A DNA stretch of 64,000 bases, taken from assembly GCA_947624445.1 (NCBI GenBank), contig CANQKF010000004.1, positions 1 through 64,000 of the forward strand, in the 5' to 3' direction. The stretch's first letter is position 1. Each line of letters opens with the position of its first letter. Under the pieces are notes generated by a model, which saw only the letters and a program-made list of their open reading frames with translations, was not told the DNA's origin and made no database searches. Origin of the DNA: an uncultured Clostridia bacterium (lineage in GTDB: Bacteria; Bacillota; Clostridia; Christensenellales; Borkfalkiaceae). A program made the translations under genes and the position numbers. Shown here piece after piece: positions 25,242 to 59,043 of this stretch.

Positions 25242-25398
25242 GAAAAACCCAAAATCACACTTTTGGGTTTTTCACCCCAATTTGCGCATTCATGCGCTTC
25301 TTGTCTTTGAGGACAAAGCGGTTGGCGGCCAAAAAAGTCGGGGGATGTAGTAATTTAACCCCTCACGGAATTTTTTCGCCAAGGAAAAATTCGTGAAC
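25242..25398 (+). repeat. Structured repeat element, copy 1
   Basis: A 157-nt unit. Hairpin H1 is a 13-bp perfect stem (25242-25254 with 25261-25273). Next come CCCCAATTTG, hairpin H2 (GCGCATTCATGCGC), TTGTCTTTGAGGACAA and a GCGGCC block. It ends with hairpin H3 (25363-25398): CACG, bulged G, AATTTTT pairing with AAAAATT and CGTG. Confidence 0.7.
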
Positions 25399-25419
25399 TT
25401 CCAAACTCTCTTTGCGTTA

Positions 25420-25595
25420 GGCGGAATTCACTTCCGCCGTGCGCGACACAATTTGCCGAACCCTTTCGGCTTGTTGTCTTGAGAACAGACAAGGTTGCGG
25501 CCGACGGGGCTGTGAGATGTAAAAGTTTACCCCTCGAAAATTTCTATGCCCTTATTTTGCACCCGCAGGGGATTTCTAATGGATAGAAATTTTCG
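25420..25595 (+). repeat. Structured repeat element, copy 2
   Basis: Directly follows copy 1. H1 is GGCGGAA/TTCCGCC around TTCAC (25420-25438). It shares ACACAATTTG, H2 as CCGAACCCTTTCGG, TTGTCTTGAGAACAGACAA and GCGGCC with the other copies. Its last hairpin is a 13-bp perfect stem (25535-25547 with 25583-25595) with a longer loop, close to the pta stop. Confidence 0.65.
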
Positions 25596-25601
25596 AAATT
25601 C

Positions 25602-26645
25602 TCACTCCGCTTGCAGCGCCGTGATGGCGACCGCGCAGACGATATCGTCCTTCTTGCAGCCGCGGGAGAGATCGTTGAGGGGCTTCGCAAAGCCCTGGCA
25701 GATGGGGCCGATCGCCTGGAACCCGCCGAGGCGCTCCGCGATCTTGTAGCCGATGTTGCCCGATTGCAGATCGGGGAAGATGAGCACGTTTGCATGCCCC
25801 GCCACCTTGGACGCGGGCGCTTTGAGCGCCGCGACTTCGGGGACCATCGCCGCGTCGAACTGCAATTCGCCGTCGATCATGAGCTCGGGCGCCTTCGCTT
25901 TGGCGATCTTCACCGCCTCCTGCACGTTGGTCACGAGGTCGTGCTTGGCGCTGCCCATCGTCGAGAAGGAGAGCATGGCGACGCGGGGCGAAAGGCCTGC
26001 GATCTCCATCGCGCTCTTCGCCGTGGCGATGGCGCAGTCGGCGAGCCCTTCCGCCGTGTAGGTGGGGTTGAGCCCGCAGTCCGCAAAGATCAGCATGCCG
26101 TCCTCGCAGTATTTATTGCCGCCCGAGGGCGCGACCATGAGGTTGAAACTCGAGACGGCGGAGACGCCCGGCGCCGTCTTGATGATCTGGAGCCCGGGGC
26201 GGAGCGTGTTGGCCGTCGAATGGCATGCGCCCGAGACGAGCCCGTCCACATCGCCCGATTTCAGCATGAGCGCGCCGAAGAAGGTCGCGTCCTTCGCCTG
26301 TTCGAGCGCCTGTTCCTCCGTCATGCCCTTTGCCTTGCGGAGCTCATAGAGGAGCTTGGCGTATTCGCCGAGCTTGGGCGACGTCGCGGGCTCGACGATC
26401 TGCACGCCCGCAAGGTTGATCTCGGGATTCTTTGCGCGGATCTCCTCCGCATTGCCGAGCAGGACGATCTTCGCGACGCCCTGGTCGACGCAATCCGCCG
26501 CCGCCTCGACGACGCGCGCATCCTCGCCCTCGCAGAGGACGATCGTCTTTTGCTTCGCCGCCGCCTTTTTCTTGATCTCTTCAATGATCGTTCCGCTCTC
26601 GGCGATCTTTCTGCCGAGGTCCTTGAATGCTTTCATGATGCCCAT
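25602..26645 (-). CDS. pta: Phosphate acetyltransferase
   Basis: A 347-residue Pta that makes acetyl phosphate from acetyl-CoA. Family blocks include VLCEGEDARVVEAA, KSGDVDGLVSGACHSTANTLRP and MLSFSTMGSA near 250. Length fits the short clostridial type without the N-terminal regulatory domain. The start MGIMKAF is chosen for GGAGAT seven bases upstream. It is divergent from tmcAL; about 120 bp with two TATAAT/TATACA-like boxes separate them. Confidence 0.95.
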   Translation of the reverse strand: MGIMKAFKDLGRKIAESGTIIEEIKKKAAAKQKTIVLCEGEDARVVEAAADCVDQGVAKIVLLGNAEEIRAKNPEINLAGVQIVEPATSPKLGEYAKLLYELRKAKGMTEEQALEQAKDATFFGALMLKSGDVDGLVSGACHSTANTLRPGLQIIKTAPGVSAVSSFNLMVAPSGGNKYCEDGMLIFADCGLNPTYTAEGLADCAIATAKSAMEIAGLSPRVAMLSFSTMGSAKHDLVTNVQEAVKIAKAKAPELMIDGELQFDAAMVPEVAALKAPASKVAGHANVLIFPDLQSGNIGYKIAERLGGFQAIGPICQGFAKPLNDLSRGCKKDDIVCAVAITALQAE

Positions 26646-26768
26646 TTGAAAATCTCCAAAAAACCCTTTATTTTTCTCCGCGTTTCGTGTATAATGTTCG
26701 CGGAAGAAATGATCGTATGTCATTATACACCCTTTTCGGAGAATTGTAAAGCTACAGGCGGAAAAATC

Positions 26769-27950
26769 ATGAAATTTTGTGCTGTCATCTGCGAATACAA
26801 CCCCTTCCACAACGGGCACGCCTACCAGCTCGCCGAGATCAAGCGGCAGAGCGGATGCGACGCCGTTCTCTGCCTCATGAGCGGGAATTTCACCCAGCGC
26901 GGCGAACCCGCCGTCCTCGGGAAGTACGCGCGCGCCCGCCATGCGGTCGAAAACGGGGCGGATATCGTCCTCGAACTGCCCGCGGCGTTTGCCGTCGCCC
27001 CCGCGGAGATCTTCGCGCAGGGTGCCGTCCACATCCTCGCAAGCATCGGCGCCGTGACGACGCTCGCCTTCGGCTGCGAGAGCGGGACGAAGGAGGACTT
27101 CCTGCGCGCCGCCCGTGCGACGCTCGGCGAGGACAGGCGTTTCCGCGCCGCCCTCAAAGAGGCGATGAAAGACGGCACCTCCTATGTGAAAGCGCGCACG
27201 CAGGTGATCCTCGCGCTCAATTCGGACATCGACGAAGCCCTCCTCACCGCGCCCAACAACATGCTCGGCACCGAATACTGCCGCGCGATCCTCGCTTCGG
27301 GCGCAAACATCGCCCCTCTGCCCATCCGCCGCGTCGGGGGCGGGCATGCGGACAGCGCGCTTCATCGGGACTTCTCCTCCGCGGCGGCGCTGCGCAGCGT
27401 GCTCGGCGAGCGCTCCCTCCGCGCGGCATTCGCAAAGCGGCGCAACCTGCCCGCGGACGTCTGCGCCTCCCTCGCCGACTACAAGCCGACGGCGTATCCC
27501 ACCGCCGCGCTCTGCGCCCTCGTTGCGGCGGACGAAGCCGATCTCGCGCTCACGCCCGATTGCTCGGAAGGGCTCGAGAACCGCCTCAAAGCGCTCTCGC
27601 GCTCCAATCTCGACTACGAAGCCCTGCTCGGCAAGGTCGTCTCCAAGCGGTATACCCGCGCGCGCATCAAGCGCATTTTGCTCCAGAATTTCCTCGGGAT
27701 CCGCCTGAAAAACGTCAGAAATTACCTCGACGCCCCCCTCTATCTGCGCACGCTCGCCGTGAAGAAGCGCCGCGCGGAGGAACTGCTTTCGGCGCTCTCG
27801 GGCGGCTTCCCCATCCTCGCCCGCAAGAGCGACGGGGCGCTGCTCAAAAAGGACGCCCTCTCCTGCTTTTCCCTCGACGTGCGCGCAAACGAGCTCTATG
27901 GCGCGCTGACGGGCGTTCACAGCGGCGATTTCGAGACGGTGTTCGTCTGA
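26769..27950 (+). CDS. tmcAL: tRNA(Met) cytidine acetate ligase (YlbM family)
   Basis: A 393-residue nucleotidyltransferase-fold enzyme that uses ATP and acetate to form N4-acetylcytidine at the wobble base of elongator tRNA-Met. The sequence starts VICEYNPFHNGH with the HxGH-type ATP motif at 14-17 and has MSGNFTQRGEPA near 39-50. It is divergent from pta and near ackA; since the enzyme uses free acetate, the neighbourhood fits its substrate. This grouping with yceD-rpmF is usual in Clostridia. Start at 26769 after AGGCGGAAAAATC. Confidence 0.92.
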   Translation: MKFCAVICEYNPFHNGHAYQLAEIKRQSGCDAVLCLMSGNFTQRGEPAVLGKYARARHAVENGADIVLELPAAFAVAPAEIFAQGAVHILASIGAVTTLAFGCESGTKEDFLRAARATLGEDRRFRAALKEAMKDGTSYVKARTQVILALNSDIDEALLTAPNNMLGTEYCRAILASGANIAPLPIRRVGGGHADSALHRDFSSAAALRSVLGERSLRAAFAKRRNLPADVCASLADYKPTAYPTAALCALVAADEADLALTPDCSEGLENRLKALSRSNLDYEALLGKVVSKRYTRARIKRILLQNFLGIRLKNVRNYLDAPLYLRTLAVKKRRAEELLSALSGGFPILARKSDGALLKKDALSCFSLDVRANELYGALTGVHSGDFETVFV

Positions 27951-27967
27951 ACCGCGTCCGCAAGCCA

Positions 27968-28010
27968 CAAAAAAGGGCCCCCGAAGTTGCCTCGGGGGTC
28001 CTTTTTTTTG
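27968..28010. terminator. Bidirectional terminator between tmcAL and GH43 gene
   Basis: GGGCCCCCGA (27975-27984) pairs with TCGGGGGTCC (27992-28001) with one G-U pair, A-run before and eight T after. Confidence 0.9.
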
Positions 28011-28031
28011 CCGTTGGAATCCTTCCCGGGA

Positions 28032-30023
28032 TCAGCCGACGAGATCGGTGCCCGTGATGGACGAATAGTTGTTGAAGAACAGCCCGAACCCTTGCGTGGA
28101 TTCGCCCTCGGAGTGGCTCATGCAGGTGATCGTGAAGCCGGATTTGTTCTGGTCGTCGAGCCAAGCCGTGCGGACGACGCCGTAGTATTTCTTGTGTCCC
28201 GCGGGAACGGTCGCCGCGTCGTTGAACTCGAAATAAATATACCCGTCCCCATAGATCCTCCACGTGCCGATCTCCATCGTGTCCCAGATCGTGCCATCCT
28301 CGCGCAGGGTGACGTCCGTCGAGGTGAGCGTGAGATCGTTGTCGTTTTTGAGCACGACCATCTTGAACTTCCGATCCTGCGTATATTTGAAGAGCTCCTC
28401 CTCGGAGACGGGACGCTGGCTCTCGCCGCCGTAGCGGTTGGGGTTGATGACGATATCGCCCATCGAGTTGAGGTAGTATTGGTGGACCTGCGAGACGAAC
28501 ACGGTGCCGTCGGCCTGTCCCTTTTGCATCCAGCTGTCCGTGCGGGTGATGTACGCCGCGACGTTGACGCCCGATTTCGTCGTGAAGAGGTCGTTGTGCC
28601 CGGGCAGCTTGATGTCGATCGCGTTCTCCCACGCGCCTTGCCATTTGAACGTGCCCGTATACTTATTGCCCGAATTCTGCGCGTTGGCGGGCCCGATGTT
28701 GCGGACGATCCCGCCGTTCGTAGATTCATATACGCCCCACGGGCTTTCGCTTCTTCCGCCCCACATCTGGTAGCCGACGTCGAGCCCGTTATAGGAGTGC
28801 ATGGAGTAGTAATAGGTCTTTCCCTTGGAAAGCACCTTCTCGTTCTCGTCCATTATGGTCACGTTGTCGTGGCGGGCGATGACGGGCGCCTCCATGGCGG
28901 AGAGGGAGATGAGCCTGCCGTAGAACTCGGATTCGACCGTCTTGCCCTGCGCGAAATCCATGTGCATCGCGACCGCTTCGTCGCGGTAAGCGCGCACGGC
29001 GGGGATATCGAGGAAGGTCCCGTCCTGATAGAAGTTATCCTTGCGGAGCCCCGTCGCGGGATCGAGCTCGAGCATCCAGTTGCCCGTGCCGAAGGAGCCG
29101 TATGCCATATACATCTTGCCGTCGGGCGAGTAGATGATCTGCGGGTCGATGGAGTTGACGTCCATGCTCGATTCCTGGGTATTCTGCGGGATCGCCGACT
29201 GCATCAAAACGCCCACGTATTGGAAGGTCTCGGGCTGCAGCGAATACGAATGGAAGAGCACGATGCACGCCTTGGAATACTCCACGCCGTCGTGATTGGG
29301 CGTGCCGTTGGAAACGCAGCAGGTGTAGAGCCAATAGCCGCCGTCGGGCGCTTTCACGATGTCGGGCGCCCACCACTGGATGCCGCCGCTCGTGCTGTTC
29401 TTCTCCTCTTCCCACGCGTCGATGAGGGGCATCTGCGTGCTCGGCGAAGTCGCCTTGCCGAGATAATTCCACGTGATGAGGTCGTAGGACTTCCGGATCT
29501 CGTTGCCCGACGACCATCCCGTGGAGAAGATATAGTAGGCGGGCTTGCCGTTCTCCTCTACCTCGATGAGAGAGGGATCGTGCGTCCAGCCGAGCAGTTT
29601 GCTCCCGCCCGTCGAATAATCGTTCTTGCTCGAGAGATCATATTGGTTGTGCGGATTTGTGACGTACGCGGGCACGACCTCGACGCGGAACCCCGTCCCG
29701 TCCTTCATCGTAAAGACGGCGGAGCCCGCCGTGTTCTTGGCGCTGACGACGCCCCCCGCGTAGTCCACGACGGTACCCTCGGCGACCTCTGCGCCCGTGG
29801 CGTCGTACTCCTTGCGGGAGACCGCGCCTTTCAAAGTGTAACTCGTCGTCGAAGCGGGAAGTTCCACGCCGTCGTCGGGCAAGTTATCGAAGGCGATGCG
29901 CGCGCCTTCCGCCTTTGTCGCACTGCCGCCATCGCCGCCGCAACCCGCGAAGATCGCCAGCGAGGAGACCGTAAGGACGGAGCCGAGCGCGAGCGCCAAC
30001 AGCTTTTGCGTTCCTTTTATCAT
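28032..30023 (-). CDS. GH43 lipoprotein, probable endo-arabinanase
   Basis: A 663-residue secreted lipoprotein. Residues 1-27 are a signal peptide ending in the lipobox FAGC, then an Ig-like N-terminal stretch, then a five-bladed GH43 domain starting GWTHDPSLIE (catalytic-base region) near residue 147 and containing QWWAPDIVKAPDGGYW near 220. The last 120 residues resemble the C-terminal domain of extracellular arabinanases (GH43_C), with GTWRIYGDGYIYFEF. The likely role is cutting alpha-1,5-arabinan at the cell surface. It is a single gene with promoter at 30050-30078 and ribosome site GGGGGTGGAAAC. Confidence 0.88.
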   Translation of the reverse strand: MIKGTQKLLALALGSVLTVSSLAIFAGCGGDGGSATKAEGARIAFDNLPDDGVELPASTTSYTLKGAVSRKEYDATGAEVAEGTVVDYAGGVVSAKNTAGSAVFTMKDGTGFRVEVVPAYVTNPHNQYDLSSKNDYSTGGSKLLGWTHDPSLIEVEENGKPAYYIFSTGWSSGNEIRKSYDLITWNYLGKATSPSTQMPLIDAWEEEKNSTSGGIQWWAPDIVKAPDGGYWLYTCCVSNGTPNHDGVEYSKACIVLFHSYSLQPETFQYVGVLMQSAIPQNTQESSMDVNSIDPQIIYSPDGKMYMAYGSFGTGNWMLELDPATGLRKDNFYQDGTFLDIPAVRAYRDEAVAMHMDFAQGKTVESEFYGRLISLSAMEAPVIARHDNVTIMDENEKVLSKGKTYYYSMHSYNGLDVGYQMWGGRSESPWGVYESTNGGIVRNIGPANAQNSGNKYTGTFKWQGAWENAIDIKLPGHNDLFTTKSGVNVAAYITRTDSWMQKGQADGTVFVSQVHQYYLNSMGDIVINPNRYGGESQRPVSEEELFKYTQDRKFKMVVLKNDNDLTLTSTDVTLREDGTIWDTMEIGTWRIYGDGYIYFEFNDAATVPAGHKKYYGVVRTAWLDDQNKSGFTITCMSHSEGESTQGFGLFFNNYSSITGTDLVG

Positions 30024-30049
30024 GTTTCCACCCCCAAAACTTTTCCATT

Positions 30050-30078
30050 ATTTTATCATATCGCGGAGAACATTGCAA
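30050..30078 (-). promoter_or_regulatory. GH43 gene promoter
   Basis: Minus strand TTGCAA (30073-30078), 17 bp, TAAAAT (30050-30055) with TGA before the -10 (extended). Confidence 0.7.
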
Positions 30079-30115
30079 CCCATTCCCTGTATTTTCTGCA
30101 AAAAACTTTCTTGCC

Positions 30116-30158
30116 GCAAGCATATCGTAAGCAATTTGCAAACAGAATGCAAGCATAT
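30116..30158. promoter_or_regulatory. Direct repeats upstream of the GH43 promoter
   Basis: GCAAGCATAT occurs at 30116-30125 and 30149-30158, 33 bp apart (three helical turns), 40 bp upstream of the -35 box. This is the position of an activator site. The rest of the 30079-30313 gap shows nothing further that I can name. Confidence 0.4.
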
Positions 30159-30313
30159 AGCAAAGCCCTCTCCGTCACCGAAGAGGACTTTGCTGAGAGA
30201 ATATGAAAAAATCAGAGAATAAGCAGAAGTTTGTTTTCTGCCTATATCTTAACGTAGCAACGTGAAATTTTTGTGTATTTGCGATTAAAAGTATCTGAAA
30301 GAAAAAATTATTT

Positions 30314-31816
30314 TCAAAATCCGCAGCGCGCGGCGATCGCAGAAGCGACGCGGATCCCGTCCGCCGCCGCCGACATGATCCCTCCCGCATAGCCGCATCC
30401 CTCGCCGCAGGGGTAGACGCCCTCGTGCCCCGCCGCCTCAAAGGTCTCCCCGCGCAAGACGCGGACGGGCGAGCTCGTGCGGCTCTCGACCCCCGTGAGC
30501 AGAGCGTCGGGATGATCGAAGCCCTTGAGCCGCCGCCCCATATCGCGGATCCCGCGGGCGAGGCACTCCGTCATCACGGGCGGAAGATAGGCGGAGACGG
30601 GCGCGAACGCCGTGCCGCGGGCATAGGTCGGGAGGACGGCGCCGAAGCGGTCTGTTTCCCGCCCCGCGAGGAAGTCCCCCACGCGCTGCACGGGCGCACG
30701 GTATCCCCCGCCGCCCGCAAGATAGGCCGCCCGCTCGAGGTTCCGCTGGAAGGCGACTCCCGCGAGCGGATGGTCGCTCGCAAAGTCCTCCCGCTTCACT
30801 TGCACGACGACGGCGGCATTGGCGTTCCTTCCCGCGCGGGCGTAGTCGCTCATGCCGTTGGTGACGACGCCCCCCTCTTCGGACGCCGCGGGGATGACGA
30901 CCCCGCCCGGGCACATGCAGAAGGTGAATACGCCGCGCTCCGAGGCATGGGAGACGAGCTTGTAGTCGGCGGGCGGCAACAGGCGGTAGGCGTCGCCGTA
31001 CTGCGCGCGCCCGATGTCCTCCTGCAAGTGCTCGATCCGCACCCCCGCCGCGAACTCCTTCTGTTCCATGGCGAAGCCGCGGGAGAGCAGCATCCCGAAG
31101 GTGTCCCGCGCGCTGTGCCCGATCGCAAGGACCACGGCGTCGAACTTCTCCCGCCCGCCGATCTCCGCGACGGGCTTGCCGTTTTCGAAGAAGAGATCGG
31201 AGAGCGCCGTCCCGAAGCGCAGTTCGCCGCGCTCGGCGATGAATTTCGTGAGATTCGCGACGACCTGTAGTAGTTTATCGCTGCCGATGTGCGGCTTGTT
31301 CAGGTAGAGGATCTCCGCGGGCGCCCCGAAGCGGACGAAGCGCTCGAGCACCTCGCGGTGGAAGGGCGAATTGGTCTGCGTTGTGAGTTTTCCATCGGAA
31401 AACGCCCCCGCGCCGCCCGCGCCGAACTGCACGTTGGAGGCGGGATCGAGTACCCCCGTATGTTGAAATTCGAGGATATCCGCGGCGCGCGCCTCCACCG
31501 CCTTGCCCCGCTCGACGAGCACGGGAGAGACGCCGTGGTCGATGAGCCGAAGCGCGCAGAAGAGCCCCGCGGGGCCCGCGCCCACGATGAGCACGCGCGG
31601 CTTGCCCTTAACCTGCGGAAAAACGGGCGGGATCTCGCGGCGGACGGCGGTATCGCATTCGATGCTGTATACCCAGCGGATATCCCGTTTATCTCGGGCG
31701 TCCAGCGACTTTTTGAGGATGCGGAAGTGGCGGACGGGGCCGCCGAGCCTGCCCGCGCAGAACGCATGGAGTTTGCGCTCGTCCTCCCCGGGACGGAGGG
31801 TCGTCTGCACGATCAT
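30314..31816 (-). CDS. FAD-dependent dehydrogenase (COG2509 type)
   Basis: A 500-residue flavoprotein. An N-terminal ferredoxin-like part of about 90 residues precedes the Rossmann dinucleotide fold VLIVGAGPAGLFCALRL near residue 92. GGAGAFSDGKLTTQ (near 150), a second conserved block near 340 (MCPGGVVIPAASEEGG) and the closing GEGCGYAGGIMSAAADG are typical of the uncharacterised COG2509 family. The start overlaps the stop of the next flavoprotein gene by ATGA (31813-31816). The reaction is unknown. Confidence 0.88.
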   Translation of the reverse strand: MIVQTTLRPGEDERKLHAFCAGRLGGPVRHFRILKKSLDARDKRDIRWVYSIECDTAVRREIPPVFPQVKGKPRVLIVGAGPAGLFCALRLIDHGVSPVLVERGKAVEARAADILEFQHTGVLDPASNVQFGAGGAGAFSDGKLTTQTNSPFHREVLERFVRFGAPAEILYLNKPHIGSDKLLQVVANLTKFIAERGELRFGTALSDLFFENGKPVAEIGGREKFDAVVLAIGHSARDTFGMLLSRGFAMEQKEFAAGVRIEHLQEDIGRAQYGDAYRLLPPADYKLVSHASERGVFTFCMCPGGVVIPAASEEGGVVTNGMSDYARAGRNANAAVVVQVKREDFASDHPLAGVAFQRNLERAAYLAGGGGYRAPVQRVGDFLAGRETDRFGAVLPTYARGTAFAPVSAYLPPVMTECLARGIRDMGRRLKGFDHPDALLTGVESRTSSPVRVLRGETFEAAGHEGVYPCGEGCGYAGGIMSAAADGIRVASAIAARCGF

Positions 31817-32949: not shown

Positions 32950-32955
32950 AAACTT

Positions 32956-32984: not shown

Positions 32985-32988
32985 TGGA

Positions 32989-33017: not shown

Positions 33018-33037
33018 GGGGAAAAGGAGAAAAAATT

Positions 33038-46312: not shown

Positions 46313-46426
46313 TTTTTTCTACCTCGGATTTGAATTTGCGAACTGCGATTTTTCCGCACGGTTTCCCTCGGACGCGCAGTTTCAAAGTGAGACGCATTTA
46401 TTGCATTACGCGTCGGGCTTATTTCC

Positions 46427-46463
46427 TCGGCGAAAAGATTTGCCCCGCAAAGCTTTTCGCCGA
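46427..46463 (-). other. Stable hairpin between infA and rpmJ
   Basis: TCGGCGAAAAG (46427-46437) pairs with CTTTTCGCCGA (46453-46463), and inside the loop TTTGC pairs with GCAAA. No T-run follows, so it could be a processing or stability signal rather than a terminator. Confidence 0.55.
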
Positions 46464-46472
46464 AACTATCTT

Positions 46473-48089: not shown

Positions 48090-48131
48090 AAACAACCTCT
48101 TTTTTGCTTAGCGAGATGATGCTTTTCAATC

Positions 48132-48271
48132 TCTTGCGCGAGCAAAGCCGCGCTTTGCGCTACATGGATATTGGGTTCCGTTAAACTGCGGAGAAGCGAT
48201 ACGCTTCCGATTTCTTGCGCGAGCAAAACCACGCTTTTGCGCTACATGGATATTGGGTTCCGTTAAACTGC
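48132..48271 (+). repeat. Two tandem copies of a 58-bp repeat in the adk-secY gap
   Basis: Copy a is 48132-48189 and copy b 48213-48271, both opening TCTTGCGCGAGCAAA and closing GGGTTCCGTTAAACTGC. Each folds into a hairpin: GCAAAG with CTTTGC in a, GCAAAA with TTTTGC in b. The CCGTTAAACTGCGGAGAAGC end also occurs at about 63371. Confidence 0.75.
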
Positions 48272-48290
48272 CTTCAAATCCCTTGCCTTA

Positions 48291-48445
48291 GCCCGAATTC
48301 ACTTCGGGCGTGGGCGACCCAAGTTGCCGAACCCTTTCGGCTTCTTGTCCGATGAAACAAAAAGGGTTTGTGCGGCTAAGAGTCTGGGAAAGCATGGGCG
48401 ATTATCCGCTCACGGAATTTTCTTGGCACAAGAAAATTCGTGAAC
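48291..48445 (+). repeat. Structured repeat element, copy 3
   Basis: H1 is GCCCGAA/TTCGGGC around TTCAC (48291-48309). H2 is CCGAACCCTTTCGG. The TTGTCCGATGAAAC and GTTTGTGCGGC blocks follow. H3 (48408-48445) is CACG, bulged G, AATTTTC paired with GAAAATT, CGTG. It ends one base before the secY stop codon and is antisense to the operon. Confidence 0.75.
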
Positions 48446-49777
48446 TTACTTCAAGAATCCCTTATAGTTCTTCATCAGGATCTGCGACTGCAACTGCTTA
48501 TCGAATTCCAGCGCGACCGAGACGACGATCAAGATCCCCGTCGTGGAGAACACGTTGACAAGGTTGGAGCCTGCCCAGCTGAACGCCACCGAGGGAATGA
48601 ACGCGACAAGGGTGAGGAAGATCGCACCGAACAGCGTGATGCGCTTGTTGATCTTCTTGAGATATGCCGCCGTCGGCTTGCCGGGACGGATGCCCTGGAT
48701 GAAGCCGCCGTTGCCCTGGATCTGCTTCGCCACGTCGTCGGGATTGAACTCGATGGAGGCGTAGAAGAACGCAAAGATGAAGATGAGAATGCAGAGCGCG
48801 AGGGCGTAGAGGACCTGCCCGTACCAGTTGGGCGAGGAGCCCGAGAACCAGTTCTGGAGACCGGTCGCTGCGGGCGTGTTCCCCCAGAAGAGGCTGATGA
48901 GCATGGACGGGAAGGAGATGATCGCGAACGCGAAGATGAGGGGCATGACGCCGCTTCCCGTGATCTTCATGGGAATGACGGAGCTCTGGCCGCCGTACAT
49001 CTTGGTGCCGCGCACCTGCTTTGCGTATTGCACGGGGATCTTGCGCTCGGCGAGGTCCACATACACGATCGCAAAGAACACGAGGACCGTGATGACAAGG
49101 AACAGACCGAGATTGAGAAGGTGCTCCGCGTTGTCCGTAAAGACAAGTTCGATCTCGTTGAGGACGGAGATGCCCGCCGTCGAGATGATGCCGATGAAGA
49201 TGATCATCGAGATGCCGTTGCCGACGCCGAAATCGGTGATGCGCTCACCGAGCCACATGACGAGCATGGCGCCGCCCGTGTAGACGATGGTCATGTAGAT
49301 CCCTGCGATCCACTTTGCGGCCGTCTCGCCGATGTCCTTCGCGAAGAAGAGGTCTGCCTTGATGGCGTTCTGCTGGTTCGCGAAGGTGACGATGATGCCG
49401 ACGGATTGGATGACGGCAAGGATGATGGTCAAAAGACGCGTGAAGAACGTGATGCGCTTTCTCCCCTCTTCGCCCTGCTTCGAGAGGTTCTCGAGGTAGG
49501 GAATGCCGACCGTGAGAAGCTGGATGATAATGGACGCGTTGATGTACGGCCCGATCCCGAGCGCGAACAGCGTGCCGTTCTGGAGCGCGTTGCCCGTGAT
49601 GCCGCTCATGAGCGTCAAAAAGTCGTTGCCCGTGATCGCCGTCTCGAACTGCACTCTGTCGAGCCCCGGGACGGGGATATAGCACCCGACGCGGAACACG
49701 AGCAAGAGCAGCAGGGTGAATAAGAGCTTCTTGCGGATCTCTTTATTGAGAAGGGCGTTTTTAATGGTTTCAAACAT
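48446..49777 (-). CDS. secY: Preprotein translocase subunit SecY
   Basis: A 443-residue ten-helix channel protein of the Sec translocon. It has GIGPYINASIIIQLL near 73-87 and the C-terminal loops that bind SecA and ribosomes (EFNPDDVAKQIQGNGGFIQG as two parts near 315-335). It follows rplO by 41 bp. The start MFETIKNALLN is the family start. Confidence 0.97.
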   Translation of the reverse strand: MFETIKNALLNKEIRKKLLFTLLLLLVFRVGCYIPVPGLDRVQFETAITGNDFLTLMSGITGNALQNGTLFALGIGPYINASIIIQLLTVGIPYLENLSKQGEEGRKRITFFTRLLTIILAVIQSVGIIVTFANQQNAIKADLFFAKDIGETAAKWIAGIYMTIVYTGGAMLVMWLGERITDFGVGNGISMIIFIGIISTAGISVLNEIELVFTDNAEHLLNLGLFLVITVLVFFAIVYVDLAERKIPVQYAKQVRGTKMYGGQSSVIPMKITGSGVMPLIFAFAIISFPSMLISLFWGNTPAATGLQNWFSGSSPNWYGQVLYALALCILIFIFAFFYASIEFNPDDVAKQIQGNGGFIQGIRPGKPTAAYLKKINKRITLFGAIFLTLVAFIPSVAFSWAGSNLVNVFSTTGILIVVSVALEFDKQLQSQILMKNYKGFLK

Positions 49778-50993: not shown

Positions 50994-51362
50994 TCAGAAT
51001 TCCAGCCCGGCTTCGCGTGCGCCGTCCGCAACCGCCTGTACGCGCCCCGTGTAGTTGTAGCCGCCGCGGTCGAACACAACGGTGGCGATCCCCTTCTCCT
51101 TGGCGCGCTCGCCGGCGATCTTGCCGACGATCTTTGCGGCTGCCGTCTTGGTCTTGCCCTCGATCTCGCCCTGCACGCTCTTCTCAAGCGTGGAGCAGGA
51201 CGCGAGCGTCAGACCGTTGACATCGTCGATGAACTGAACGTAGATGTTTTTCGTGCTCTTATAGACGGAGAGACGCGGGCATTCGGGGGTTCCGGAGAGC
51301 GTCTTGCGGACGCGCGCATGGCGGCGCTGTCTCACCGCATTCTTATCGATTCTTGTTATCAT
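50994..51362 (-). CDS. rplR: 50S ribosomal protein L18
   Basis: A 122-residue L18 that binds 5S r[21 protein letters not shown] near 34-51 and the closing [20 protein letters not shown] are typical. Confidence 0.97.
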
Positions 51363-51375
51363 GTTTCACGCTCCT

Positions 51376-51924: not shown

Positions 51925-51934
51925 AATTCCCTCC

Positions 51935-52327
51935 TTAATAGACGTAGCACAGCACTTCGCCGCCGACGTTTTGCGCCTTCGCTTTCTTATCCGTCATGAT
52001 GCCCTTGTTGGTGGAGACGATGGCAATGCCGTATCCGCCGAGCACCTTCGGCATGTTCTTGGCGCCGCTATACGCGCGCAGACCGGGTTTGGAAGCCCTC
52101 TCGAGCCCGCCGATGACCGACTTGCCGCCCGCATATTTGAGGGTGACGACGATCTTGGGCTGTTTGCCCTCTTCCTCGACGAATTCCACGCCCGAAACAT
52201 ACCCCTCTTCGAGGAGGATGTTCGCGATCGCTTTCTTCATGTTGGAAGCGGGGATCTCGACGGTCTCCTTGCGGACCATGAGCGCGTTTCTGATTCTCGT
52301 GAGCATATCTGCGATAGGATCTGTCAT
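51935..52327 (-). CDS. rpsH: 30S ribosomal protein S8
   Basis: A 130-residue S8, a central-domain 16S rRNA binder. [18 protein letters not shown] opens it. Start after AAGGAGGCAAGAG; the upstream extension belongs to the rpsN region. Confidence 0.97.
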
Positions 52328-52338
52328 CTCTTGCCTCC

Positions 52339-52524
52339 TTACCAGCTCGCTTTCTTCATGCCGGGGATCATCCCCTTGTAGGCAAGTTCCCGAAGGCAGA
52401 TACGGCACATGCCGTATTTCCGGAGAACCGCGTGCGGTCTGCCGCAGATCGAGCAGCGCGTATACGCTCTCGTCGAGAACTTCGGCTTCTTCTGCTGTTT
52501 GTTGATCATTGATTTCTTCGCCAT
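52339..52524 (-). CDS. rpsZ: 30S ribosomal protein S14, type Z
   Basis: A 61-residue zinc-binding S14 with C24, C27, C40 and C43. Standard place between rplE and rpsH. Confidence 0.97.
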
Positions 52525-52536
52525 GTCCGTCTCTCC

Positions 52537-53133
52537 TTACTTCTTAAAGGGCATTCCGAGCGCCTTCAAAAGCTCGCGCGCCTCTTCGTCCGTCTTTGCC
52601 GTCGTCACGATGACGACGTCCATGCCGCGGATGTTCTCCACCTGATCGTAGGTGATCTCGGGGAAGATCAGCTGCTCCTTGAGCCCGAGCGCGTAGTTGC
52701 CTCTGCCGTCGAACGCCTTATCCGAGACGCCGCGGAAGTCGCGGACGCGGGGAAGCGCGATGGAGACGAGCTTGTCGTAGAAGTCGTACATCCTTCTGCC
52801 GCGGAGCGTCACCTTGAGACCGATGTTCATGCCCTCCCGGAGCTTGAAGTTTGCGACCGACTTCGTTGCCTTTCTGTAAATGGGCTTCTGCCCGGTGATG
52901 AGCATGAGCTCCTTTTCCACCGTCTGCATCGCCTTTTGGTTGTCCTTGATGTCGCCAAGGCCCGTGTTGATGACGATCTTCTCGAGCTTGGGGCACTGCA
53001 TCACGGACGAATAGTTGAATTTCTTCATGAGGTACGGGACGACCTCCGTCTCGTACTGCACTCTCACCCTGCTCGGTCCCACGGGAGCGGCGGGCGCGGG
53101 CGCTTGATTCTTTGCCTGTTTCTTCTCTGCCAT
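52537..53133 (-). CDS. rplE: 50S ribosomal protein L5
   Basis: A 198-residue L5 that contacts 5S rRNA and P-site tRNA. The conserved part starts at [18 protein letters not shown] near residue 24; before it is an extra segment rich in Lys, Gln, Ala and Pro (about 20 residues). The start [10 protein letters not shown] has GGGAGG at the right distance; an ATG two codons earlier lies too close to that site. Confidence 0.95.
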
Positions 53134-53148
53134 GACCATTCCTCCCGA

Positions 53149-53568
53149 TTATTCCTGAGCTGGCGCTTCCGCCTTCTGGCTGCGCTTTCTCGTGCGCTTC
53201 TTGGGCGCTTCTTCCGCGGGTGCGGCGGGCGCCGCTTTCTTGCTCTTGCCTGCGTATGCCTTGTCGAGCACCGCGCCGCACTTCTTGCAGACGCGGACAT
53301 ACTTCTTGCCGGCGAGCTGGTGCGCGATGCGCGTGGGCTTGCCGCATTTCTCGCAGACGAGCATCACGTTGGAGACGTCGATGGGCGCCTCTTCGCGGAT
53401 GATGCGCGCGGTCTCGTTCGCCTTGCGCGCCTTCCTGTGTTTATACACGAAGTTCACGCCCTCGACGATGACCGTATGGTTCTTGGGGCTCGTTTTGAGC
53501 ACTTTGCCTTTCGCGCCCTTGTATTTGCCCGTGATGACGATCACGTTATCGTTTGTCTTGATTTCCAT
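53149..53568 (-). CDS. rplX: 50S ribosomal protein L24 with zinc ribbon and long tail
   Basis: A 139-residue L24. The KOW motif is in NVIVITGKYKGAKGKVLKT (8-26). Two cysteine pairs (C72, C75 and C94, C97) form a zinc ribbon, wider apart than in most L24. The last 35 residues are an Ala/Lys/Arg/Pro tail (KKAAPAAPAEEAPKKRTRK). L24 starts 50S assembly. The neighbouring rplE has a similar low-complexity end. Confidence 0.94.
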   Translation of the reverse strand: MEIKTNDNVIVITGKYKGAKGKVLKTSPKNHTVIVEGVNFVYKHRKARKANETARIIREEAPIDVSNVMLVCEKCGKPTRIAHQLAGKKYVRVCKKCGAVLDKAYAGKSKKAAPAAPAEEAPKKRTRKRSQKAEAPAQE

Positions 53569-53578
53569 GCCGTCCTCC

Positions 53579-53947
53579 TTACAGTACCTCGGGCGCGAGC
53601 GAGATGATCCTCATGTAATCCTTCTCTCTGAGTTCTCTCGCGATCGGTCCGAAGATACGGGTGCCCTTGGGCTGCTTCTGCGCGTCGATGATGACTGCCG
53701 CATTGTCGTCGAACCGGATGTAGGAGCCGTCTGCGCGGCGGATGCCCTTGGAGGTGCGCACGATGACCGCTTTCACGACGTCGCCCTTCTTCACGGCGCC
53801 GCCGGGGTTTGCCGTCTTGACGCTCGCCACGATGACATCGCCGATGTTGCCGCATCTTCTGAAGCTGCCGCCGAGCACGCGGATGCACATGATCTCCTTC
53901 GCACCCGAATTATCGGCGACCTTGAGCCTTGTTTGAGGTTGAATCAT
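53579..53947 (-). CDS. rplN: 50S ribosomal protein L14
   Basis: A 122-residue L14, starting [20 protein letters not shown]. It lies near the subunit interface and is the RsfS target in silencing. Confidence 0.98.
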
Positions 53948-53965
53948 ATTCTTCTATGCCTCCCC

Positions 53966-54220
53966 TTACTTCGCCTTCTCGATGATCTCGGCGACCCGCC
54001 AGTTCTTATCCTTGGAGAGCTTTCTCGTCTCCGCGATGAGGACTTTGTCGCCTACGCCGCACTCGTTGTTCTCGTCGTGTGCCTTGAACTTCTTCGTGCG
54101 GGTGATCGTCTTTTTGTAGACGGGGTGCTTGCGCTTGTCGGTGACTGCGACGACGACCGTCTTATCCATCTTATCGGAGACTACCACTCCGACTCTCTCT
54201 TTTCTCAAATTTCTTTCCAT
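53966..54220 (-). CDS. rpsQ: 30S ribosomal protein S17
   Basis: An 84-residue OB-fold S17 with [18 protein letters not shown] near 11-28. It lies 11 bp after rpmC. Confidence 0.97.
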
Positions 54221-54231
54221 GTTGCGCCTCC

Positions 54232-54423
54232 TTACTTCGCCTTGCGCGCGCGGATCTCGGTGTTGACTCGCGCGATCTCGCGCTTGCAGGTGCGGATGGA
54301 GAGCGGGTTTTCGAGCTGGCCGCTCGCATGGCGGAAGCGGAGATTGAAGAGCTCGCTCTTGAGATCCTTGAGCTTCTTATCGAGCTCAACGTCGGTCATG
54401 TTGTGGAATTCGTTCTCTTTCAT
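54232..54423 (-). CDS. rpmC: 50S ribosomal protein L29
   Basis: A 63-residue helical hairpin protein near the exit tunnel, with [16 protein letters not shown]. It overlaps the rplP stop by ATGA (54420-54423). Confidence 0.97.
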
Positions 54424-54863
54424 TTCACTTCACCGCCTTCCGTAGTTTCGGCGGGCTCCTCCGCCTTCACGAACTTGCACTTCACGGGGAGCTTGTGCGC
54501 CGCGAGACGCATGGCCTCGCGCGCCACGTCCTCGGGCACGCCCGCCATCTCGAACAGGACCCTGCCCGGCTTCACGACCGCGACCCAGAACTCGACCGCG
54601 CCCTTGCCCGAACCCATACGGGCTTCGGCGGGGTGACGCGTGATGGGCTTGTGGGGGAAGATGTCGATCCATACCTGCCCGCCGCGCTTGATGAAACGGG
54701 TCATCGCGATACGGGCGGCTTCGATCTGGTTGGACTTGATCCAGCCCGCTTCCTCCGCCACGAGCCCGTATTCGCCGTACGCGACCTTGTTGCCTTTATG
54801 CGCCGCACCTTTCAGGCTTCCGCGGTGCTGCTTTCTGCGCTTGACTCTCTTCGGAATTAACAT
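54420..54863 (-). CDS. rplP: 50S ribosomal protein L16
   Basis: A 147-residue L16, starting [19 protein letters not shown], part of the A-site region. The start overlaps the rpsC stop as TAATG. The upstream open frame is rejected. Confidence 0.97.
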
Positions 54864-55522
54864 TATCTGCCTCCTTCGGGCTTCTTCGCCGCCTTGAGGA
54901 CATCGCCCTTGTAGATCCAGCACTTCACGCCGATCATGCCGAACGTCGTGTGTGCTTCGGCAAAGCCGTAGTCGATATCGGCGCGGAGCGTCTGCAACGG
55001 GATGGAACCCTCGCTGTAATGCTCGGTGCCCGCGATCTCACGGCCGTCGAGACGGCCCGAGACCTGCATCTTCACGCCCTTCACGCCCGCACGCATCGTC
55101 TTGCCGATCGCCTGCTTCATCGCGCGGCGGAAAGAAGTGCGCTTCTCGAGCTGCGCCGCAACGCTCTCCGCGACGAGCTGCGCGTCCGCCTCCACCTTGC
55201 GGATCTCGGTGACGTTGATGGCGATCTGCTTGCCCTTGGTGAGCTTCGCAAGTTCCTTCTTGATGACCTCGATCTCCGCGCCGGCCTTCCCGATCAGCAC
55301 GCCGGGACGCCCCGTCTGGATGGTGACGACGATCTTGCCCGCCGCCCGCTCGATAAGGATGCGGGAGACCGCGGCGGCATAGTACTTCTTCTTCAAATAG
55401 GTGCGGATGACGTGATCCTCTTTCAGATACGCCGCAAAATCCTTCTTATCGGCATACCACTGGGTATCCCAACCCTTATTGATCCCGACTCTGAGTCCAT
55501 GAGGATTGACTTTCTGTCCCAT
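54863..55522 (-). CDS. rpsC: 30S ribosomal protein S3
   Basis: A 219-residue S3 with the KH domain block [19 protein letters not shown] near 74-92. It lines the mRNA entry. It overlaps rplV by one base (TAATG). Confidence 0.98.
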
Positions 55523-55923
55523 TAGATTTCTCCCTCCGCTTTTTTTACGTCAAGGATGACGGTGATGTGGCTCGTTCTCTTGAGGATCGCGTGCCCTCTG
55601 CCCTTGGAGACGGGCTGCATCCGCTTGAGGCTCGTGCCGCCGTCCGCATAGCAGGCCGCGACGTAGAGATCATCCCGCGACATATCCCTGTTGTGCTCCG
55701 CGTTCGCGACCGCGCTCATCAGCACCTTCTTGGTGGGCGCCGCGCCGCCGTTGGGCAGATTCTCGAGGATCGCCTGCGCTTCGGCGACGGACTTGCCGCG
55801 GATGAGGTCGAGCACCGTCCGCACCTTGTAGGGGGAGATCCGGATATACTTTGCGACCGCGCGCGGACGCGTATCTTTGTTCGCATGGATCCGCTCGGTC
55901 TTTTTCTTCATATTACTTGCCAT
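55522..55923 (-). CDS. rplV: 50S ribosomal protein L22
   Basis: A 133-residue L22, whose loop lines the exit tunnel near macrolide sites. [20 protein letters not shown] and [15 protein letters not shown] are typical. The first 20 residues are a basic extension. Confidence 0.97.
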
Positions 55924-55934
55924 CTTCTCTCTCC

Positions 55935-56213
55935 TTACTTGCCGGGCGTCGTCGACTTCGCCGTGTGGCCTCTGAACGTTCTCGTGGGCGCGAACTCACC
56001 GAGCTTGCAGCCCACCATATCTTCGGTGATATAGACGGGAACGTGCTTCCTTCCGTCGTAGACGGCAATCGTGTGCCCGACCATCTGAGGGAAGATCGTC
56101 GATGCTCTCGACCACGTCTTGAGCACCCGCTTTTCGTTGGACTCGTTCATCGCCTCGATCCTCGCAAGCAGCTTGGCTTCGACGTAGGGTCCCTTCTTGA
56201 TACTTCTCGACAT
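55935..56213 (-). CDS. rpsS: 30S ribosomal protein S19
   Basis: A 92-residue S19, starting [20 protein letters not shown]. It binds with S13 in the 30S head. Confidence 0.98.
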
Positions 56214-56227
56214 CTGAAATTCCCTCC

Positions 56228-57055
56228 TTAATTGATCCGCTTGAGAATGAACTTGCTCGTCGGATTCTTCTTCTTTCTCGTCTTATAGCCGAGTGCGGGC
56301 TTGCCCCAAGGCGTCTCGGGACCCGCATGCCCGACGGGGCTCTTGCCCTCGCCGCCGCCGTGCGGGTGATCGTTCGGGTTCATGACCGAACCGCGCACCG
56401 TGGGACGGATGCCGAGGTGGCGCGTCTTGCCCGCCTTGCCGATGCGGATGATCTCATGCTCGACGTTGCCGACCTGGCCGATCGTCGCGCGGCAACCGAT
56501 GGGGATGAGGCGCATCTCGCCCGAAGGCATGCGGATCGTCGCATATTTTCCTTCGCGCGCCATGATCTGCGCGGAGATGCCCGCCGCCCTTGCGATCTGG
56601 CCGCCGCGGCCGGGCTTCATCTCGATGTTGTGCACCATCGTGCCGACCGGGATCTCCGAGAGCGGAAGGCAGTTGCCGACCTTGATGTCCGCGCCCGTGC
56701 CGCTCATCACCTTGTCGCCGACGTTGAGGCCGACGGGCGCCAGAATGTAGCGCTTTTCGCCGTCCGCATAGGCGAGCAGGGCGATGTTCGCGCTGCGGTT
56801 GGGGTCGTATTGGATGGACTTGACCGTCGCGACGACGCCGTCTTTATTGCGCTTGAAATCGATGATGCGGTATTTGCGCTTATTGCCGCCGCCGATGTGG
56901 CGGACGGTGATCCTGCCCGCGCTGTTTCTCCCGCCGGACTTTCTCTGGTCCTCAAGGAGCGATCTTTCGGGCTTCGCCCGCGAGATCTCGCCGTATTCGG
57001 GAACCGTCATGAGACGGCGCGCGGCAGATGTGGGTTTGTATCTCTTGACTGCCAT
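56228..57055 (-). CDS. rplB: 50S ribosomal protein L2
   Basis: A 275-residue L2, near the peptidyl transferase centre. It ends with the conserved loop [20 protein letters not shown] near 222-241 containing the critical His. Confidence 0.98.
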
Positions 57056-57071
57056 ATTTCTTGCCCTCCGC

Positions 57072-57398
57072 TTAACTCAACGAATCGAAGAATTCGATGG
57101 GCTTCGATTCTTTCTTCAACTGGATGACCGCCTTCTTCGCGGTCGGCGTGTAGCCCTCGTGCCTGCCCATTCTCTTGAGCTTGCCGCGGCGGGTGATCGT
57201 GTTGACGCTCTGGACCTTGACGCCGAACATCTGCTCGACGGCGATCTTGATCTGCGTCTTATTCGCCGTTTTCAGAACGAGGAAGGTGTACTTCTTGCCG
57301 TAGCTCGTGCGGTCGCTCTTTTCCGACTCGTCGGCCTGCAGACCGTCCGTCGCCTTTTCCGTGAGGACGGGTTTCAAAATGATGTCTTCGGGTGCCAT
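57072..57398 (-). CDS. rplW: 50S ribosomal protein L23
   Basis: A 108-residue L23 at the tunnel exit, docking trigger factor and [23 protein letters not shown] opens it. It overlaps rplD by one base (TAATG). Confidence 0.97.
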
Positions 57399-58021
57399 TA
57401 GCAGTAGACCTCCTCGAGTTTCTTGACGGAGCCCTTCGTGAGCACCACAACGGCGTTCGCGACGACCTCGTAGGTGTTGATCTCCGCGACGGAGATCGTC
57501 TTGAGCGTGGGAAGGTTGCGCGCGGCAAGGATGACGTCCTCATTCGCTTCGTCCATGACGACGACGGTGTTCTTCGCGAAGTTGAACGCGCTGCGGAACG
57601 CCTCCATCTCTTTCGTCTTGGGCGCCGAGACCTTGAGCTCGTCCACGACGATGAGCTCGCCGTCCGTCAGCTTCTTGGAGAGCGCCGAGAAGAGCGCGCC
57701 CCGCTTGGCGGCGGTGTTCATCTTCTTCGTGAAATCGCGGCTCTTGGGCGCGAACACGACGCCGCCCTTGATCCACTGCGGCGCGCGGGTCGATCCCTGG
57801 CGCGCACGGCCTGTGCCCTTCTGCCTCCACGGCTTCACGCCGCCTCCGCGCACTTCCGTCCGCGTGAGCGTGGACTTGGTGCCCTGTCTCTGGTTGGAAA
57901 GATAGGTGACGACCGCCTGATGGATGAGGGGCTCGTTGTATTCGACGGCGAAGATCCCATCGGGGAGATCGATCGTCCCCACCTCTTGCTTCTTCATATC
58001 ATAAACTTTGACATTCGCCAT
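57398..58021 (-). CDS. rplD: 50S ribosomal protein L4
   Basis: A 207-residue L4 with the tunnel loop KSTLTRTEVRGGGVKPWRQK and GTGRARQGSTRAPQW near 48-82. In some bacteria it represses the S10 operon. It follows rplC by 12 bp. Confidence 0.98.
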   Translation of the reverse strand: MANVKVYDMKKQEVGTIDLPDGIFAVEYNEPLIHQAVVTYLSNQRQGTKSTLTRTEVRGGGVKPWRQKGTGRARQGSTRAPQWIKGGVVFAPKSRDFTKKMNTAAKRGALFSALSKKLTDGELIVVDELKVSAPKTKEMEAFRSAFNFAKNTVVVMDEANEDVILAARNLPTLKTISVAEINTYEVVANAVVVLTKGSVKKLEEVYC

Positions 58022-58033
58022 AATCTTTGCTCC

Positions 58034-58699
58034 TTATTGCTTCACGCTCGATTTCAACGTGACCACGCTGCCCTTGGGCCCGGGGATCGCGCCCTTGACG
58101 AGGATCGCGTTCCTTGCGACGTCCACGCGGACGACCTCGAGGTTCTGGACGGTGACGTTCTCGACGCCGTATTGCCCGGCGAGGTGCTTGTGCTTGAACA
58201 CGCGCGAGGGATCGCTGATCGAGCCCATGGAGCCGGGCTCCCTGTGGACGGGGCCGACGCCGTGCGTCTCTTTCAGGCGGTGCTGGTTCCATCTCTTGAT
58301 GACGCCCGTGAATCCGTGCCCCTTGCTCACGCCCGAGACGTCGACCCGCTCGCCTGCGGCGAACACGTCTGCCTTGAGCTCGTCGCCGACCTTGTAGCCT
58401 TCGACACCGCGGACCTCTTTGAGGACCTTGCAGGGCTGCACGCCCGCCTTGCGGAACTGGCCGTAGTCGGGGCGGGAGATGCCGTAGTTGAGATACTCGT
58501 GCTTCTCATCCTGCTTCTTGCCCTTGGACGCGATGTAGCCGAAGCCGAGTTTGAGCGCCGCGTAACCGTCGGTCTCCTCCGTCTTGACCTGCACCACGGG
58601 GCAAGGACCCGCTTCGAGCACGGTGACGGGAATGACCCTGCCGTCCTCGGCGAAGATCTGCGTCATGCCGATCTTTTTCGCGATGATTGCTTTACTCAT
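58034..58699 (-). CDS. rplC: 50S ribosomal protein L3
   Basis: A 221-residue L3, with the loop [20 protein letters not shown] reaching toward the peptidyl transferase centre. Start after TAGGAGTGAACTTTATCC. Instead of directly following rpsJ it is separated from it by 984 bp holding repeats and an unknown gene. A short AATACTGCC/GGCGGTATT hairpin (about 58735-58757) stands before its ribosome site. Confidence 0.97.
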
Positions 58700-58771
58700 G
58701 GATAAAGTTCACTCCTATAAATTTATTTGCGAATACCGCCCTACGGCAGTATTTCAACAGTGAGGTTGCTT

Positions 58772-58925
58772 GTTCACGAAATTTTTCTTGCCGAAAAATT
58801 TCCGTGAGCGGACTGCTCTTGCGTCTCCATTCGCGCTTCGCCGCACAAACTTGCTCGTTTCATCGGACAATAAGCGTGCGGTGGCTTGGCAAATTGGGCC
58901 GCGCACGGCGGAAGTCAATTCCGCC
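58772..58925 (-). repeat. Structured repeat element, copy 4
   Basis: Read on the minus strand: H1 GGCGGAA/TTCCGCC around TTGAC (58907-58925), CGCGGCCCAATTTGCC, a TTGTCCGATGAAAC block, GTTTGTGCGGCGAAGC, and H3 (58772-58809) CACG, bulged G, AAATTTTTC paired with GAAAAATTT and CGTG. It is co-directional with the ribosomal operon. Confidence 0.75.
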
Positions 58926-58947
58926 TAACGCACATTATTTGGATCAT

Positions 58948-59043
58948 GTTCACGAAATTTTTCTTGCCGAAAAATTTCCGTGAGCGGACTGCTCTTGCGT
59001 TTCCATTCGCGCTCCGCCGCACAAACTTGCGCGTTTCATCGGA
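58948..59043 (-). repeat. Structured repeat element, partial copy 5
   Basis: Only the second half is present: TGTCCGATGAAAC, AAGTTTGTGCGGCGGAGC, and H3 (58948-58985), identical in layout to copy 4. H1 and H2 are missing; the break is at the stop codon of the unknown gene at 59046. Confidence 0.7.

Follow-up and report, generated by a model that had tools for sequence, protein, structure and literature searches.

What is conserved in a repeat whose stem sequences differ from copy to copy while the stems stay paired? The question is raised by the window, the first 64,000 nt of contig CANQKF010000004.1 (assembly GCA_947624445.1) of an uncultured Clostridia bacterium of the family Borkfalkiaceae, in which five copies of one intergenic element lie beside phosphotransacetylase, secY and ribosomal protein genes. 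We consider it probable that the element is a genus-specific, non-autonomous palindromic repeat, similar to repetitive extragenic palindromic (REP) sequences and bacterial interspersed mosaic elements (BIMEs) or to BOX elements, and that it has been spread by a putative enzyme that reads folded single-stranded DNA. It occurs in many copies, singly and in tandem; its paired positions covary; many relatives have the same gap without it; and the hairpin at its 3′ end abuts stop codons. In orthologous copies the hairpins change less than the spacer, neither strand is preferred for the fold, and no reading frame runs through the unit. Mobility, and an enzyme that reads shape, are what we infer.

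Anatomy and fold of the repeat

The unit is about 165 nt long and reads, 5′ to 3′, leader, hairpin P1, hairpin P2, variable spacer and hairpin P3. P1, P2 and P3 are the stems H1, H2 and H3 of the original prediction, whose order of H1, linker, H2, a TTGTC/GAAAC-like segment and H3 matches what we see. The conserved leader before P1 covers some 16 nt (about TTCYAAATYAYKTGC, by eye). P1 is an imperfect hairpin in which an outer GCC/GGC or GCG/CGC part and a TTA/GTG internal loop, both additions to the earlier description, enclose an inner stem of several types (GGCGGAA/TTCCGCC; GCCCGAA/TTCGGGC; GCGC-GA-GCAAAA/TTTTGC-GCT-GCGC; long A/T stems). P2 has the form CAAT-TT-stem-TT-ATTG with T-T mismatches, which fill 215 cells in 121 aligned rows, and P3 is a long hairpin of the form TC-stem-GA, with 90 unpaired G on its 5′ arm and 6 on the other arm in the same rows. 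Some copies carry an extra GAGGA/TCCTC stem in the spacer ahead of P3. Spacer 4-mers complementary to the P3-side arm were found in 79 of 121 copies against 29.4 expected, and 5-mers in 30 against 9.7 expected, 26 of those 30 being GAGGA/TCCTC; 6-mers showed no excess (3 vs 3.4 expected), so the extra stem is short or type-specific. Units stand alone or head to tail at a spacing of about 170 nt, other repeats are lodged within P3 loops and between units, and partial copies and internal deletions occur (copy E of the window; locus L202).

Selection on the fold was assessed with a covariance model of the element, R1, built from 19 copies (165 positions, 30 pairs) that include copies A to D of the window but not copy E, and with an alignment of 123 matches at E<=1e-12 from 80 hand-chosen sources (121 distinct rows, two places being duplicated). 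The alignment was fitted to the structure, so pairing counts lean towards it, and 92.8% of cells are paired, against 74.4% in shuffled alignments and 38-53% with slid partners. Both sides have changed in 24 of the 30 pairs, the covariation score is 0.472 against 0.151 in shuffles, and none of 500 shuffles reached any of five measures. By mutual information, seven of the ten strongest couplings are in-register pairs in P1, P2 or P3 (5-31, 124-152, 123-153, 122-154, 12-24, 45-58 and 132-145); the remaining three (6-28, 7-28 and 6-17) fall in the P1 internal loop, as a result of P1 types being exchanged. The stems are thus truly compensated, with double changes across the 123 aligned matches, and the fold is selected, pairing lying far above both kinds of control. 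Covariation persists in this larger alignment, as judged by shuffles and slid partners in place of R-scape.

Whether the fold is selected in RNA or in DNA had been left undecided by the original prediction. The strand comparison, like the leader, placement, orthologue and frame counts, used 120 of the 123 matches (the omitted rows are two that repeat the places of L136 (L216), and L135:6022-6226), while the comparisons for P1, P2, spacer and P3 used all 121 distinct rows. The element folded better on the sense strand in 56 of 120 copies and on the antisense strand in 64, with a mean of 1.1 kcal/mol towards antisense; P1 leans the opposite way (p = 0.004), consistent with its fixed T-G. As a control, the signal recognition particle (SRP) RNA of the same genus folded better on its sense strand in 28 of 28 loci, by a mean of 12.8 kcal/mol (28 of 30 fetched loci; the shorter, lower-scoring L252 and the partial L253 were omitted).

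RNA should tolerate G-U pairs on its own strand. With the arms aligned symmetrically, G-T and A-C cells number 38 vs 76 in P3, 23 vs 27 in P2 and 84 vs 8 in P1, and 81 of the 84 G-T cells in P1 are the T-G of the internal loop. There is thus no G-U excess in these arms apart from one fixed internal-loop position, and the stems are mostly Watson-Crick. G-U cells do outnumber A-C cells in the model alignment, a count we set aside because it consists mostly of the P1-loop T-G and of P3 columns shifted in register by the bulged G. The absence of a strand preference, together with the absence of a G-U excess outside the fixed position, favours action as DNA hairpins rather than as a one-strand RNA, which narrows the earlier wording to its DNA half. 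Following the SRP control, we set aside RNA-level selection as the main explanation. At gathering scores, Rfam matched only SRP RNA and a tRNA in the window, and at E<=1 six matches were obtained at the five element loci, none of them near its gathering score; Rfam lends no support to self-cleaving ribozymes or to any other known RNA.

Copies in the window and placement at gene ends

The copies and one remnant in the window are as follows.

25230..25398, + strand: copy A with leader, first of a two-unit tandem; A/T-rich P1 (25242-25273), P2, spacer and P3 with bulged G; from the sequence and R1 (122.9 bits at 25240-25401)
25399..25601, + strand: copy B with leader; P1 GGCGGAA/TTCCGCC, P3 without bulge and with a longer loop; 3′ end directly behind the phosphotransacetylase stop codon (antisense gene, stop at 4 nt; PTA_PTB Pfam match of 25602-27968); R1 135.2 bits at 25412-25601
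46421-46466, - strand: P3-type hairpin remnant, 6 nt behind the infA stop codon (InfA by Pfam)
48273..48448, + strand: copy C with leader, in the secY-adk gap; P1 GCCCGAA/TTCGGGC, P3 end directly behind the secY TAA (antisense gene, stop at 1 nt); R1 158.1 bits at 48283-48448; SecY and ADK by Pfam
58769..58944, - strand: copy D with leader, lying between an open reading frame (ORF) without known family and rplC (L3 by Pfam) as the second unit of a tandem; R1 132.7 bits at 58769-58933
58945..59055, - strand: copy E, truncated at the 5′ side with P1 and most of P2 gone; R1 58.8 bits

All five copies lie where they had been reported, with R1 scores from 58.8 to 158.1 bits; the two placed at 58772-58925 and 58948-59043 (D and E) belong to the minus strand, and share 97% identity over 99 nt. 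By eye, the bulged G of P3 is present in A, C, D and E, and absent from B, in agreement with the four copies counted before. The reported sites also hold: the ackA-pta gap, the secY-adk gap of the spc operon and the rpsJ-rplC interval of the S10 operon. The remnant behind infA is new; hairpins like it belong to copies behind infA in two relatives (L137 and L143). Pfam identifies acetate kinase, phosphotransacetylase, SecY, adenylate kinase, an M24 peptidase, L3, L4, L23, L2 and S10 as neighbours of the copies, the M24 peptidase being, to judge by its place, a predicted methionine aminopeptidase. No reading frame accounts for the element, as had been proposed: just 6 to 19 of 120 copies keep any one of the six frames open throughout.

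P3 lies at gene ends far more often than P1 does. Taking ORFs of at least 60 codons, without annotation, as genes, an antisense ORF ends within 57 nt of the P3 end in 58 of 82 non-tandem copies and within 9 nt in 51 of 82 (38 tandem copies omitted); a start codon comes first in 12 of the 82 and neither in another 12. The P1 end is within 9 nt of the end of a sense ORF in only 8 of 83 (37 copies omitted as tandem or with identical flanks), which differs from the 51 of 82 at P3 with p = 5e-13. Random places in the same loci fall within 60 nt in 23% of cases and within 12 nt in 6.5%.

Two genes were followed across genomes. The secY-adk gap measures 8-23 nt in 27 of 77 genomes and 34-856 nt in the other 50, with three further loci ending before adk. 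An R1 match lies inside the gap in 16 of the 77 and in two of the three incomplete loci. By our reading the first match is antisense and starts no more than 12 nt past the end of secY in 11 of the 18; many relatives have no element at this gap. At infA (71 loci, P3 adjacency within 3 nt assigned by eye), 7 of the 12 genomes with an adjacent P3 end the gene with TAG, against 0 of 59 others, and 10 of the 12 have AAT as the final codon, against 2 of 59. The gene end seems to have been changed by insertion from AACTGA to AATTAG or AATTAA. The insertion has probably replaced the last bases of infA, with the end of the element supplying the stop codon.

Change after insertion was followed in orthologous pairs, that is, copies that follow one and the same gene in separate genomes, with arms and loops together counted as hairpin segments. 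In seven pairs, picked for at least 88% element identity, the hairpins differ at 24 of 728 sites and the spacer at 43 of 387. Five non-redundant pairs used in a stricter test gave 22 of 541 against 34 of 281 changed sites (p = 3e-5). Two same-genome pairs were omitted (L056/L057, 0/96 in hairpins vs 6/55 in spacer; L059/L063, 3/99 vs 9/55), and in many more diverged pairs P1 is kept while P3 and the spacer are widely different. Copy C differs from its counterpart L178 at 4 of 155 aligned positions (97.4% identity), all of them in the spacer, while the secY genes of the two genomes have diverged at 81 of 442 amino-acid positions and at 67 of 174 four-fold sites. The hairpins have either remained under constraint since insertion, or copies of this kind are recent exchanges or insertions; the data fit both.

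Distribution, possible mover and alternative explanations

With copy C as query, blast returned 19 matches at E<=1 in the 1.84-Mb source genome, some of which are fragments of a single copy. R1 gave 22 matches at E<=1 and 20 at E<=6e-5 (150 of 520 candidates scored); five of the 20 lie in the window, one is a P3 only, and nine had been used to build the model. Within the genus, 53 of 61 genomes (the source included) have R1 matches at E<=0.01 and eight have none; 25 of the 61 have at least 25 matches, and seven of these reach at least 46. These copy numbers are lower bounds because few candidates were scored per genome (at most 46, 18 and 14 in the genus, order and class draws), and weak or diverged copies elsewhere may escape. 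Other genera gave 0 of 24 genomes by blast, where same-genus relatives gave 17 of 36; with R1, none of 145 genomes drawn from the order matched (5 of 6 same-genus genomes in that draw did), nor did any of 195 drawn from the class, the draws overlapping and the filters being strict. By a SecY search the source genome belongs among uncultured Clostridia metagenome-assembled genomes (MAGs), many of them from rabbit gut to judge by the word 'Lapin' in their names, and Candidatus Gallimonas species. The model search proposed for this genome and related Clostridia thus returned many copies, with the family found only within one genus. Among the top-ranked results of an open-access literature search, no earlier description of the repeat was found.

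How might such a repeat spread? We envisage an enzyme that would recognise a folded single DNA strand, such as the template of lagging-strand synthesis or a strand released during repair, and would read its shape and unpaired linkers rather than the letters of its stems. A transposase, present now or formerly, may act in trans, much as TnpA-REP is thought to move REPs in trans. The insertions mostly kept would be those with P3 set against the end of a gene, since this end of the element can provide a stop codon in the gene's own reading direction. P3 would then lie in the 3′ untranslated RNA of the gene and, by analogy with REPs, may act on RNA stability or translation; REPs near stop codons affect translation, and REPs are said to act on RNA stability. 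In its most specific form, this proposal has a recombination enzyme of the genus reading the folded single-stranded shape, not the stem sequence, and joining the element to gene 3′ ends, with stems therefore free to vary if paired and an end able to replace the stop codon; in that form it is possible, if somewhat unlikely.

The resemblance to known repeats is real but partial. REPs are palindromic intergenic repeats, often species-specific, some with bulged hairpins (PMC3733652; PMC6006769). Many REPs lie near ORF 3′ ends, convergent ones mostly within 20 bp, and REP termini often provide a stop codon (Di Nocera 2013, PMC3733652; PMC6006769). Our element is like REP, BIME and REPIN sequences in being palindromic and intergenic, in its bulged hairpins and in lying near ORF 3′ ends (51/82 within 9 nt). 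It nevertheless fails three of the REP features tested, namely tag, size and REP-associated tyrosine transposase (RAYT). Three dissimilar hairpins make up a unit of about 165 nt, where a REP is a palindrome of 20-40 bp, and a GTAG or CGTC tag is present in 0 of 114 distinct P3 ends (four bases after GAA, at the P3 foot only). No RAYT flanked by the element was found, the source-genome Y1 gene being IS200-type and 0 of 12 Y1 loci having an R1 match, in genomes that are incomplete. Units stand head to tail, unlike the oppositely oriented dimers of BIMEs and REPINs. The BOX element of Streptococcus pneumoniae has the organization boxA-(boxB)n-boxC and terminal inverted repeats that are compared with those of ISSpn2 (Croucher 2011, PMC3049150). 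It is likewise a composite, modular, strongly folded small interspersed repeat of variable tandem number, found in clusters with other repeats, one inserted into another (PMC3049150). It differs, in a comparison by description only, in that our element repeats whole units in tandem and varies its stems with pairing kept. As to the hallmarks of miniature inverted-repeat transposable elements (MITEs), no terminal inverted repeats were seen by eye between the leader and the P3 end.

The most direct rival holds that the hairpins are a host-beneficial 3′ untranslated or non-coding RNA structure on the gene's own transcript, for which the repeats are kept. P3 directly behind stop codons, hairpins less changed than the spacer in orthologues, the 97.4% identity of copy C to its counterpart despite a strongly diverged secY, and a slight lean of the fold, averaging 1.1 kcal/mol, towards the gene-sense strand (p = 0.03 overall and 0.001 for the spacer) would all suit it. 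We judge it unlikely, however, given that a known RNA of the genus is far more strand-biased (SRP, -12.8 kcal/mol, 28/28), that P1 favours the opposite strand (p = 0.004), that 12 of 82 copies face a start codon instead, and that the element is absent from the same gap in many relatives. A different mover, a genus IS200/IS605-type Y1 transposase acting in trans, would make the element REP-like in the strict sense or akin to the PATEs (palindrome-associated transposable elements) of Haloquadratum, which are non-autonomous relatives of IS200/IS605. PATEs are non-coding, form hairpins and are numerous, as the element is; they differ in that the element has three hairpins and no link to the Y1 genes of the genus was found. 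Bulged or mismatched hairpins, tandem arrays, the lack of terminal inverted repeats by eye and the single IS200-type gene speak for such a mover, yet it is decidedly improbable. The genus has 21 Y1 matches in 16 of 61 genomes, and a full-model search of 12 examined Y1 loci (34,462 bases, E<=1) returned an R1 match at none; high-copy genomes such as G005, G006, G024 and G070 have no Y1 match, although the MAGs are incomplete and this absence is not proof; and there is no correlation with copy number. The sole Y1 (HUH) transposase gene found in the source genome is IS200-type (NF033573, 144 bits) and not RAYT-type (REP_Tyr_transpos 22.1 bits, cut-off 80); this IS200/IS605-type TnpA gene, the only Y1 match there, lies at L120 1414-1935 (G000:C14). 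The IS200-type transposase was rejected as the mover for want of association with element loci or copy number.

That the copies are decayed ends of a coding transposon is very improbable. Partial copies and internal deletions (copy E; L202) would fit such decay, but no frame spans the element, most of the matches listed span the whole model, and neither 50,697 phage records, 72,556 plasmid records nor viral contigs, the last compared with one exact pattern of one P1 type, gave a match. Neither the frames, the Y1 loci nor these records revealed a coding transposon behind the copies, the refuting outcome named beforehand. Integron attC-like recombination sites also form imperfect hairpins behind genes, their core sites being RYYYAAC and GTTRRRY, and 18 of 120 copies carry GTTAGGC on the 5′ side of P1. 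We rejected this explanation as barely credible: the paired motifs occur in the order GTTRRRY...RYYYAAC in only 7 of 120 copies and in the reverse order in 0 of 120, and the window copies lie in core operons rather than in cassette arrays.

A mobile repeat read as folded single-stranded DNA remains our preferred explanation, and several results weigh against it. No mobilising enzyme for the element was found in the genus genomes, and Y1 presence shows no association with copy number (mean 24.1 vs 19.9, p = 0.40); a missing mover gene is weak evidence because MAGs lose repeats and mobile genes. In close relatives we saw neither a recent insertion matched by a clean empty site nor a target duplication, so that movement is something we infer. 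The strand-marking bulge is not universal, its clear TCACGG form occurring in 52 of 121 rows and other P3 types lacking it. One of the seven orthologous pairs (L076/L083) reverses the trend, with 10 of 96 hairpin and 3 of 54 spacer sites changed, and the fold leans slightly to the strand of the neighbouring gene's mRNA (p = 0.03 overall, spacer p = 0.001). The placement counts are not independent, because the same genes (secY, infA, pta) recur across species. Finally, the near-identity of copy C and L178 across a diverged secY fits host-level selection, recent local exchange or repeated insertion too.

The element offers a natural experiment in structure-only conservation, combining exchanged, compensated stems with an easily read rule of placement at stop codons. 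It also makes it possible to ask whether shape is enough for an enzyme to recognise DNA. It further combines REP-like placement with a lineage in which no REP tag was seen and no RAYT found, and it enlarges the gaps of core ribosomal operons while leaving the operons unbroken.

Other repeats and an extra gene nearby

Between rpsJ (59684-60121) and rplC (58034-58699), with copy E directly behind it, lies an ORF of 175 aa at 59046-59573 on the minus strand; it is an extra gene inside the S10 operon and has no Pfam or NCBIfam match.

Upstream of copy C the window holds a further mosaic.

48120..48271, + strand: flanking mosaic in which a second-P1-type hairpin (GCGCGAGCAAAACCACGCTTTTGCGC and a variant) twice precedes the end of a second repeat family; from the sequence
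48173 and 48255, + strand: end of the second repeat family, GGGTTCCGTTAAACTGC

This second structured family (..CGTATAAGCGTCGCAATGC..CGGTCACGTACG....AGTACGCTCCC..CTTGCTCGCTTCTCCGCGTTTAACGG) stands directly behind the same stop codons. It is found behind secY in L127, L137, L142, L162, L168, L183 and L195 and behind infA in L155, L157, L158, L161, L163, L167 and L171, one of which (L161, Gallimonas merdae, G015) comes from a genome without R1 matches. Another repeat (GTCATTCAGAGGG..GAAGAATCC..AGGATGACACGG) lies ahead of copy A (25040-25229) and also ahead of the array in L024, which suggests that the repeats travel or accumulate as composites. A further one (GCCCCGC..GCAC..GCGCGGCACGAGC..GAAGTAGGGC) is nested between P1 and P2 or after P2, at L063 696-914, L104 378-619, L091 365-576 and in L134.

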